This document shows, piece after piece, positions 2,596-6,223 of a stretch of 64,000 nt of DNA. Under the pieces are notes generated by a model. That model saw only the letters and a list, made by a program, of their open reading frames with translations. It was not told the DNA's origin and made no database searches. A program made the translations under genes and the position numbers. How positions within the stretch are numbered: position 1 is the first letter of the stretch; each line of letters starts with the position of its first letter. The stretch is from Leptolyngbya sp. 'hensonii' (lineage in GTDB: Bacteria; Cyanobacteriota; Cyanobacteriia; GCF-001939115), in assembly GCF_001939115.1 (NCBI RefSeq), contig NZ_MQTZ01000041.1, forward strand, positions 1 to 64,000, in the 5' to 3' direction.

Positions 2596-3144
2596 GTGAA
2601 TCTAACTTCTCCCCGCTTGAAAGGGTTGCATTCTATTCTGGATCGTCTGCCTCTGTCTGCTTTGCTGACTGGGAGCAGTCTGGCCCTGATTACCTATATT
2701 ACGCGCCACGGACTGATTGGCCCCACGATCGTGATCGGGGCTACCGTTCTGCTGTTCTACCATCGGGATCTGGCCGCTCTGCTACCCCGGAGAAACCAGC
2801 GTCCTCGATCGTCCGGGCTGTTGGCTCAGGGACTTCTGAGTGCGGTTCTGGGGGGGGCCGTTCTGCTGGATGGGGCCGTTCTGCCAGCCCAGGCCCAGTT
2901 CATGAACAAAGCCGAGCAGTTTTTTGACAAATTTACCAGTACCGCCAACATTGATCCAAAGGTGACCGATCTGGTCTTCTCCACCCTGCGCGGGCTATTT
3001 CTGCTGTATCTGAGCATCAGCCTGATTCGAGTGGTGCAGGCAGCTCGCAACGACGAAGACTGGCAAACCCTGGCCCGCACTCCCCTGATCATCGTGATCA
3101 CGATCGTGGTAGCGGACGTTTTGACGGGCCTGGTCACCGGTTAG
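2596..3144 (+). CDS. VirB2-like small membrane protein (putative T4SS pilin-like)
   Basis: Start chosen at GTG 2596, preceded by GGAGAAAACCT. An upstream ATG at 2464 would add 44 residues with no membrane or signal character. The 182-residue product has a hydrophobic N-terminal half, then a signal-like segment ending LPAQAQ near residue 101. What follows is about 80 residues with two hydrophobic helices (LRGLFLLYLSISLIRVV and PLIIVITIVVADVLTGLV) joined by a charged loop. That is the layout of VirB2/TrbC pilins: long leader, AxA-type cleavage, two helices. The two following genes look like VirB3 and VirB4, which supports the call. Sequence identity to VirB2 is not recognisable by eye, so function is inferred from architecture and context. 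Confidence 0.5.
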   Translation: MNLTSPRLKGLHSILDRLPLSALLTGSSLALITYITRHGLIGPTIVIGATVLLFYHRDLAALLPRRNQRPRSSGLLAQGLLSAVLGGAVLLDGAVLPAQAQFMNKAEQFFDKFTSTANIDPKVTDLVFSTLRGLFLLYLSISLIRVVQAARNDEDWQTLARTPLIIVITIVVADVLTGLVTG

Positions 3145-3156
3145 GGCGGAATTCCC

Positions 3157-3543
3157 ATGAACAAGCAACGGGACCGGTTTCGTCCGGTCAACCCCATGCT
3201 GGGGGTGCAACCTCGCCTGGGTCCCTTCCCGGCGGAGCATATCCTGCCCTGGAGCGTGATCGGCTTCGCTGCCTATCTCCTCTGCCAGGTATTTCTCAAC
3301 CTGGGCTGGCTCTGGACTGGCGTGATCGCAGCCTGGGGCATCAGCACCTGGTGGATCTTAACTGGGGATAAACCCTGGCGGTTCCTGTCCAGATTTACTC
3401 GCACCCCCTATTGGGTGCGGGGCTACTGCACCTACCACTCGATTCTGCAAACGCATCGTTCCCACCGTCATGAAAGCAAAGTTAGGCACAAAAACCGTTC
3501 ACACCGGGCAGCAGCAGGTCAAGCTCGTTCCCATAGAAGATAG
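3157..3543 (+). CDS. VirB3-like small membrane protein
   Basis: A 128-residue protein beginning 12 bases after the VirB2-like gene. It has an N-terminal cytoplasmic stretch, a hydrophobic hairpin (WSVIGFAAYLLCQVFLNLGW and a second helix ending WWILTG) at about residues 31-70, and a basic tail rich in H, R and K. Size and topology fit VirB3/TrbD, which anchor the VirB4 ATPase to the membrane. Its last 74 bases overlap the start of the VirB4-like gene in another frame, so the two are probably translationally coupled. VirB3-VirB4 fusions are known in other systems. The real C-terminus may be shorter if a frame error lies in the overlap. Confidence 0.5.
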   Translation: MNKQRDRFRPVNPMLGVQPRLGPFPAEHILPWSVIGFAAYLLCQVFLNLGWLWTGVIAAWGISTWWILTGDKPWRFLSRFTRTPYWVRGYCTYHSILQTHRSHRHESKVRHKNRSHRAAAGQARSHRR

Positions 3544-6223
3544 CCTGAATCTAGTGGCTCCCTTTCGGATGGAAGTTCGAAATCGGAGTATCGCTGGATT
3601 CCTATTGCAGAAGAGTCAGCAAGACTTCTGCTTTCAGTTTGCCTGGGACTGCCAGGGCATCCATCCCACCCCCAGGCTGGAACAAATCCACCCCATTTTT
3701 GAAGCCCTGGAGTCGGGTCTGAAAGACTTGCCCCAGGGAGAACGACTGACGCTTCAGTTAAGTTCATTCTCCTCCGATCGGGAGCGTCAGGAGCAACTCA
3801 AAGCCCTCAGTCGATCGGCTCGAAATCCTCAATTGCAATTCCTGTTGCTGGGAGAACGGCAACGGGTTCAGGAACTGACCCGTCAGGGCCAGCGCAAACC
3901 CAAGCGATTACGGCTATATGCCACCTACACGGTGACTGCTGATAGCCAGGGCGCAACGGATGCGATCGAAAAAGTCTTGCTGAAGCTGGAGAACTGGATC
4001 AACAAGCTCACGGGTGAGTTCTCCCAGGCTGAACAGCAGAAGTTTGAGGCGCTGTTTACGAAAGCATTCACAGATGGCTTCCAGGTGTGGGAGCAACTGC
4101 TCATCCAAAAAATGGGGCTGGACCTGCGACCTCTGGATGAGGCAGAGCTCTGGCAAGATCTCTGGTTTCGTTTCAACACCGCAGAACCCATTCCCATTCC
4201 CCAGCTCTTGATTCTGGATCGTCAGGGGCTCCGGGAGGAAGTCAACAGTCCGGTGCATGCAACCACCTTGCTTCTGGGATCGGAATCCTCGGTTCCGATC
4301 GCCCAGCGTCACTGGGTGAATCTGAAACAGGGGTACATCGCTGCCCTGACATTTTTGGATAAACCAGGGGGCTGGGCCGATCAGTTGAGTCAACTGCGTT
4401 ATCTGTGGGAAGTGCTGGCCAGGGAATCAGTGACGGATGTGGAGGTCTTTTGCCAGCTCAGCCGTGCCAATGAGATGCTGGTCAAAACATCTGTCCAGCG
4501 AGTTACTAAGCAGTCTAATGTGGCAGCATTGGTGGCCCATCAGAAAGCGGCGATCGATGTGGGAGCGCAACTGAAAACTCAGGAGGCTGTTGCTGCCCAG
4601 GAAGAGTTGTATCGGGGAGCCCTGCCCCTCCATACCGCCGTCTCAATGCTGGTCTACCGTCCCCATCTGGATGCCCTGGACGAAGCCTGCCGCTATCTGC
4701 AGGGCTGCTTTCGGCGTCCGGCCTGGGTGTTGCGAGAAACAGAATATGCCTGGCGCATCTGGCTGCAAACCCTGCCGATCGTCTGGGAAGGGCTGCTGAC
4801 TAGTCCATTTAACCGACGTCAGGTCTACCTGAGCAGTGAGGCTCCGGGCCTGCTTCCCTTGATGCGCCCCCAGGATTGCGATCGCACAGGCTTTGAGCTG
4901 ATCACAGAAGAGGGCGGCGTGCCGATTCACCTGGATCTGTTCACGGCCCACAAAAACCTGGGCCTGTTCGCCACTACCCGGGCCGGAAAATCGGTGCTGG
5001 TATCCGGCATCCTGACCCAGGCCCTCAGCCATGGCCTGCCGGTTGTGGCGATGGATTTTCCGAAACCAGATGGTTCTTCCACATTCACCGATTACACGGC
5101 TTTTATGGGAGAACAGGGAGCCTACTTTGATATTGGCAACCAGTCCAACAACCTGTTTGAGATGCCCGACTTGAGAGCTCTCAGCCTATCCGACCAGCGA
5201 GAGCGCTTTGAGGATTACAAGGGCTTTTTAGAATCGGCTTTGATGACGATGATTCTGGGTTCGGGAAGGACGACTTCAGGCCACGATCGACTGCTGGCCC
5301 AAACGATTCGCTCAATTATAGTCCTGGCCCTCAACGGTTTCTTCCAGGATTCGGCGATCGATCAACGCTATCGGTTAGCGATGGAAGGAGGCTTTGCCTC
5401 CGATGCCTGGATCAAAACCCCCACCCTGGCAGATTTCCTGGATTTTTGTACTCCCGAACGCCTTGACCTAGAGCAGATTCAGGGAGAGAACAGCCAGGCC
5501 CTGCAACAGATTCGTCTGCGGCTGCGTTTTTGGCTTAACTCACGGGTGGGTCGATCGATCTCTGCCCCTTCCAGCTTTCGGACGGATGCCCAGTTGCTGG
5601 TCTTTGCCCTGCGGAACCTCTCCTCCGACGAAGATGCAGCCGTATTGTCCCTCTCCGCTTACTCGGCTGCCCTGCGGCGGGCTCTCCAGTCGCCAGCCTC
5701 CATTTTCTTTATTGACGAAGCCCCAATTCTGTTTGAGTTTGACGAAATCAGTGCTCTGGTGGCCCGGCTCTGTGCCAATGGGGCCAAAGCAGGGGTGCGG
5801 GTGATTCTGTCGGGTCAGGATCCGGATACGATCGCCCGATCACCCTCGGCCTCCAAAATTTTGCAGAACCTCACGACTCGCCTAATTGGACGTATTCAGC
5901 CTTCCGCGATCGACAGTTTTGAGCAGATTCTCAAGTATCCTCGCGAAATAATTGCCCGCAACGCTTCCGAGAGCTTCTTTCCTCGCAGGGCCGGAATGTA
6001 TTCCCAATGGCTGCTGGATGATGCGGGACTTTACACCACCGTTCGCTATTACCCCAGCGAAATTCAACTGGCTGCCGTTGCTAACAATCCCCACGAACAG
6101 GCTGCCCGTACTGCCTATCTGCAGGCCTGCACTGATCCCCTGGAAGGACTGGCCAGGTTTGCTAAGGCCTTGGCTCAGGCCATTCGAGAGGACAGGCCAA
6201 TTGCTGGGCCAGAGCCTGAATAA
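3470..6223 (+). CDS. VirB4/TraC-like conjugation-type ATPase
   Basis: A 917-residue P-loop ATPase of the VirB4/TraC/HerA-FtsK group. Walker A is TTRAGKSVLVSG near residue 505 and Walker B is IFFIDEAPILFE near residue 745, followed by VRVILSGQDPDTIARS. This order and the roughly 500-residue N-terminal domain before the P-loop match VirB4 proteins, which power substrate transfer and pilus assembly in type IV secretion systems. No relaxase, VirD4 coupling protein or VirB5-VirB11 gene follows; the next gene is convergent, 9 bases away. The protein may serve a reduced or different export machine. The ATG at 3470 lacks a ribosome-binding site and lies inside the preceding gene. Confidence 0.7.
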   Translation: MKAKLGTKTVHTGQQQVKLVPIEDSLNLVAPFRMEVRNRSIAGFLLQKSQQDFCFQFAWDCQGIHPTPRLEQIHPIFEALESGLKDLPQGERLTLQLSSFSSDRERQEQLKALSRSARNPQLQFLLLGERQRVQELTRQGQRKPKRLRLYATYTVTADSQGATDAIEKVLLKLENWINKLTGEFSQAEQQKFEALFTKAFTDGFQVWEQLLIQKMGLDLRPLDEAELWQDLWFRFNTAEPIPIPQLLILDRQGLREEVNSPVHATTLLLGSESSVPIAQRHWVNLKQGYIAALTFLDKPGGWADQLSQLRYLWEVLARESVTDVEVFCQLSRANEMLVKTSVQRVTKQSNVAALVAHQKAAIDVGAQLKTQEAVAAQEELYRGALPLHTAVSMLVYRPHLDALDEACRYLQGCFRRPAWVLRETEYAWRIWLQTLPIVWEGLLTSPFNRRQVYLSSEAPGLLPLMRPQDCDRTGFELITEEGGVPIHLDLFTAHKNLGLFATTRAGKSVLVSGILTQALSHGLPVVAMDFPKPDGSSTFTDYTAFMGEQGAYFDIGNQSNNLFEMPDLRALSLSDQRERFEDYKGFLESALMTMILGSGRTTSGHDRLLAQTIRSIIVLALNGFFQDSAIDQRYRLAMEGGFASDAWIKTPTLADFLDFCTPERLDLEQIQGENSQALQQIRLRLRFWLNSRVGRSISAPSSFRTDAQLLVFALRNLSSDEDAAVLSLSAYSAALRRALQSPASIFFIDEAPILFEFDEISALVARLCANGAKAGVRVILSGQDPDTIARSPSASKILQNLTTRLIGRIQPSAIDSFEQILKYPREIIARNASESFFPRRAGMYSQWLLDDAGLYTTVRYYPSEIQLAAVANNPHEQAARTAYLQACTDPLEGLARFAKALAQAIREDRPIAGPEPE

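Follow-up and report, generated by a model that had tools for sequence, protein, structure and literature searches.

The window, the whole 64-kb stretch of DNA analysed here, starts at the end of a contig (C41), and 2.5 kb from that left contig end begins a group of three closely spaced or overlapping genes whose products resemble VirB2, VirB3 and VirB4 of T4SSs. The three ORFs, with the parts of them considered below, are as follows:

2596..3144, plus strand: VirB2-like pilin precursor, 182 aa from a GTG start, or 226 aa from the TTG at 2464.

2896..3141, plus strand: predicted mature pilin following AQA cleavage, as read from the sequence, with two hydrophobic segments seen in the alignment.

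3157..3543, plus strand: VirB3-like small membrane protein, 128 aa, a helical hairpin with homologues on 71 plasmids.

3470..6223, plus strand: VirB4/TraC-type ATPase, 917 aa, matched by the TraC and VirB4 models, with homologues on 114 plasmids and intact motifs.

4970..4993, plus strand: Walker A region of VirB4, ATTRAGKS, residues 501-508, from the alignment.

5702..5719, plus strand: Walker B region of VirB4, IFFIDE, residues 745-750, from the alignment.

The virB2-like ORF has a GGAG 8 bases 5' of the GTG at 2596, and starting there gives a pilin closer in length to most homologues than does the in-frame TTG at 2464, which is a possible alternative. Its product carries an AQA/QF cleavage motif, of which the AxA is kept in nearly all of 16 aligned homologues, followed by two hydrophobic stretches that flank a conserved RNDEDW loop; 54 cyanobacterial plasmids carry its conserved C-terminal half, up to 65% identical. 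PF04956 does not match the pilin significantly (best E 4.7), and its identity as VirB2 rests on the motif and on homologues that occupy the virB2 position on plasmids. The VirB3-like protein is predicted to contain two adjacent membrane helices, at residues 26-47 and 51-69 (AlphaFold2, with pLDDT of about 80 there, hence moderate confidence). It has no Pfam match and no meaningful PDB match in a fold search, and is named for its topology and its position before virB4, whose start overlaps virB3 by 74 bases; L022 and L023 are among the relatives that share this overlap. Two models, TIGR02746 (TraC, E=4.7e-9) and TIGR00929 (VirB4, 2.6e-5), match the ATPase, the TraC model matches all members of a 12-sequence alignment of the family, and both TTRAGKS and IFFIDE are retained. 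Neither as a single sequence nor as a profile does it match PDB sequences, and a PF19044 search of its own genome was uninformative for so divergent a VirB4 family.

On cyanobacterial plasmids, tblastn finds homologues of the ATPase (114 plasmids), the pilin (54) and the small protein (71), which in annotated plasmids head a conjugation or T4SS locus with the order B2-B3-B4-B5-B6-B8-B10-B9-g470-(g475)-D4. Dozens of plasmids carry homologues of all three in this order, so the trio is not a chance grouping. An earlier note on this DNA had proposed the VirB2-, VirB3- and VirB4-like identities, and these are borne out by the plasmid homologues, the TraC/VirB4 models, the motifs and the topology; the features that it had read from the sequence (an AQAQ-type site in a two-helix pilin, a hairpin protein and a 917-residue ATPase, closely spaced or overlapping) are all found in the ORFs. 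The profile search that it recommended gave a divided answer: TraC and VirB4 models match the ATPase, PF04956 does not significantly match the pilin, and no Pfam model matches the VirB3-like protein.

An MFS transporter gene lies on one side of the trio and a VanW gene on the other, the latter convergent with virB4 and nine bases beyond it, and then come FtsX and further chromosomal genes. The presence of cell-division and ribosomal protein genes in the window led us to reject C41 as a plasmid contig, and the chromosomal setting named in the earlier note is supported. A prophage origin was also considered and rejected, the ATPase having no match in 50,697 phage records. At the contig end itself, two overlapping ORFs on the minus strand of positions 1-434 look like a frameshifted, IS-like transposase, and a Kovacikia minuta plasmid carries related DNA at four positions. 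When the other T4SS proteins of the plasmid relatives were compared with the whole 64-kb window by tblastn, nothing but the trio was matched. The absence of any other VirB gene or coupling protein therefore holds for the window; it does not hold for the contig, which carries these genes, VirD4 included.

Profiles of VirB8, VirB6 and VirB10 each gave exactly two matches in the genome, one set on contig C43 and the other at C41:193.6-197.1 kb, which belongs to a second locus:

C41:192,748-201,490, plus strand: eight consecutive intact genes.

These encode, in order, VirB5-like, VirB6, VirB8, VirB10 and VirB9 proteins, two accessory proteins (g470-like and g475-like) and VirD4, and are followed by tpiA. 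The names of VirB10 (TrbI/VirB10, PF03743, 1.2e-11) and VirD4 (PF10412, 4e-28) are supported by Pfam, and those of VirB5, VirB6, VirB8 and VirB9 by position and general features. The channel and core genes (B6, B8, B9, B10) and the VirD4 coupling protein are thus present in the genome, on the same contig and strand as the trio and 186.5 kb (about 187 kb) from it. The gene sets of the two loci are exactly complementary and, given the gene order of the plasmid relatives, the break falls exactly after virB4 and before virB5. Every part is there and intact, the two sets complete each other and together are homologous to a single operon, and they do not form one cluster. The earlier note had called the trio an orphan, a view that it would have given up for a T4SS locus outside the window; such a locus is on the same contig, and because it supplies the complementary genes intact, VirD4 among them, the trio is not an orphan.

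Among the ORFs beside either C41 locus we saw no integrase, integration or replication genes, and in neither locus did we see a VirB11-like gene. The second locus shares no 16-base repeat with the window's first 8 kb, and there is therefore no sign of repeat-driven misassembly or of what caused the break. About 3.4 kb upstream of the second cluster lies a DNA/RNA non-specific endonuclease gene (PF01223, 2.5e-58; L121:5252-6304, corresponding to C41 at about 188.3-189.3 kb).

We consider it probable, with good confidence, that the trio is one half of a chromosomal MPF_C-type T4SS broken between virB4 and virB5, the rest of which is on the same strand of C41, 187 kb downstream. PLSDB labels two of the relative plasmids MPF_T; the reference plasmid pCC7120alpha, with virB4 (alr7206) and virD4 (alr7213), has been placed in MPF_C (PMC8600333). 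Conjugative MPF_C plasmids of the pCC7120alpha type (NZ_CP040299, NC_007410, NC_019739) carry the same genes as C41, in the same order allowing for the break, with VirB4 proteins 50-62% identical to that of C41. On these plasmids the genes form an uninterrupted run, often together with a MOBV or MOBP relaxase, whereas in C41 they are chromosomal and split, and no relaxase of the system's own was detected. In a T4SS locus of a Pseudanabaena plasmid (L021:20632-25782), the place of VirB9 and VirD4 after the VirB10-like gene is taken by genes for a CBASS cyclase, a 7-cyano-7-deazaguanine synthase and a PDDEXK nuclease, which gives the impression of a defence cassette inside the transfer locus.

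From this gene content we infer that the two C41 halves work together. VirB2 would be cleaved at AQA and retained in the inner membrane, and VirB3 and VirB4 would then draw it out of the membrane and pass it on to a growing fibre. An inner-membrane channel (B6, B8), an envelope-spanning core (B9, B10) and a substrate-loading motor (VirD4) would come from the second locus. As to the substrate, export of protein and transfer of DNA by means of a relaxase acting in trans appear about equally likely, because VirD4 is present and no relaxase belonging to the system was detected; T4SSs without a relaxase have been treated as putative protein exporters by Guglielmini et al. (PMC3158045). The sole MOBP relaxase detected in the genome lies at C43:257.4 kb, just beside a second T4SS on that contig, and a MOBV search of the genome matched nothing, as did the control for that search. 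It is likely, if not proven, that the C41 system has no relaxase of its own.

The T4SS on C43 is complete and unsplit, which raises the question of whether the trio serves as a spare pilus and motor set for it, and not for the C41 channel genes. The VirB4 tree places the C41 protein as sister to a group made up of the C43 protein and one from a Pseudanabaena plasmid (98/97), as such a role might lead one to expect. The C43 system, however, already has its own B2, B3 and B4, the two VirB4 proteins are only 58% identical, and the C41 channel genes would be left without a motor, so that we regard service to C43 as unlikely.

We also weighed whether both C41 loci are the remains of an integrated conjugative element that has been decaying since it lost its relaxase. 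The confinement of MOBP relaxase to C43, the lack of visible replication or integration genes beside either locus and the IS-like element at the contig end are in keeping with such a relic, but the state of the genes makes it improbable: the eleven T4SS ORFs are all full length, the ATPase motifs are intact and the codon usage of most of the genes falls inside the chromosomal range. Branch lengths agree, being shorter for C41 than for C43 in all three trees (VirB4, 0.41 v 0.59; VirB8, 0.46 v 1.39; VirD4, 0.62 v 1.12), and thus show no sign of decay. The best single trees place C41 VirB4, VirB8 and VirD4 beside different neighbours, and for that reason the system may be of mosaic origin. Placement with the C43 system is the best tree for VirB4 (98/97) and is not rejected for VirB8 or VirD4 (AU p 0.24 and 0.25, respectively); one shared history for the three proteins is accordingly allowed by these sequences, not demonstrated.

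Among 390 genomes of the class, VirB4 occurs in 117 and VirB8 in 109, normally 3-6 kb apart, and in a comparison by eye nearly all VirB4 genes among the matches listed have a VirB8 within a few kb. In the places checked, the two are really separated only in C41 and in four genomes of the Gloeobacter family (G012, G046, G032, G060). Contig ends account for the apparent orphans in G163, G325 and G078, and a local rearrangement over about 14 kb for the case of G070. These figures bear on the proposal of the earlier note that the three proteins form a reduced fibre or secretion machine of their own. The isolation of the trio in the window speaks for a stand-alone device, but the channel, core and VirD4 genes that it would do without are intact on the same contig, nearly every VirB4 among the matches listed has a VirB8 close by, and the other exceptions checked have the remaining genes nearby or a match that runs into a contig end; we consider it highly improbable. 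What takes its place is a testable chromosomal T4SS with its motor genes far from its channel genes.

The closest published parallel for the split reading is the rvh T4SS of Rickettsiales, in which virB3-virB4-virB6 and virB8-virB9-virB10-virB11-virD4 occupy separate islets and are inherited vertically (PMC2653234). As in C41, a chromosomal T4SS has virB3-virB4(-virB6) apart from a virB8-virB9-virB10-virD4 block; unlike C41, rvh belongs to another lineage and class and has duplicated genes and VirB11, and the likeness of C41 to this vertically inherited system is one of gene layout. Clustering at one locus is a matter of organisation, not of mechanism, and the rvh system shows that function does not depend on it. 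Annotation tools that work by locus and rely on neighbouring genes would rate the C41 system as incomplete.

A further comparison is with the chromosomal T4SSs of Nostocales (e.g., L044, L069, L093), which resemble C41 in lying on chromosomes or large contigs, in a VirB4 about 62% identical and in having the genes B2 to B9, and differ in being contiguous (B2-B3-B4-B5-B6-B8-B10-B9). In this T4SS family of Nostocales (L036-L114), VirD4 is absent within 10 kb, the neighbourhood considered, in about 48 of 57 long loci.

In the Gloeobacter family, B2-B3-B4 stand at one locus and B8-B10-B9-g470-D4 at a second, as in C41, while B6, unlike in C41, is at a third; in G060, which belongs to another genus, B4, B8 and B6 are on three contigs. 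A further difference is seen in G012, where a peptidoglycan-binding/muramidase gene (L027:12302-13576; PF01471, PF11860) directly precedes virB2, in the place of VirB1. Between two close genomes of the Gloeobacter genus, dN/dS is about 0.08 for VirB4, 0.10 for VirD4 and 0.27 for VirB10, and the values range from about 0.04 to 0.27 where both dN and dS were computable; being well below 1 where measured, it indicates that the scattered genes are under purifying selection. This parallel, in which separation goes with conservation, supports the reading of C41 as a split T4SS, and the persistence of a comparable scattered set in four genomes argues against a decaying relic. VirB4 of the Gloeobacter family is only 43% identical to that of C41, so the two splits probably arose separately.

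That the Gloeobacter family shows the same separation with conserved, selected genes suggests that some cyanobacterial T4SSs are domesticated cell functions, a wider question that we consider worth following. The one paper found that names both Gloeobacter and VirB reports that mobile plasmids are absent there, Guglielmini et al. in 2011 found cyanobacterial ICEs only in Cyanothece (PMC3158045), and we found no description of a scattered cyanobacterial T4SS in the open-licence literature. Tentatively, and with rather less than even confidence, we propose that cyanobacteria, including the early-branching Gloeobacter family and the C41 lineage, may independently have made plasmid-type T4SSs into vertically kept, scattered, relaxase-less chromosomal machines that serve protein delivery or DNA exchange and not the transfer of plasmids. 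One Gloeobacter-family genome, G032, also contains a more distant VirB4-like family, 26-27% identical, which occurs twice (L016, L017).
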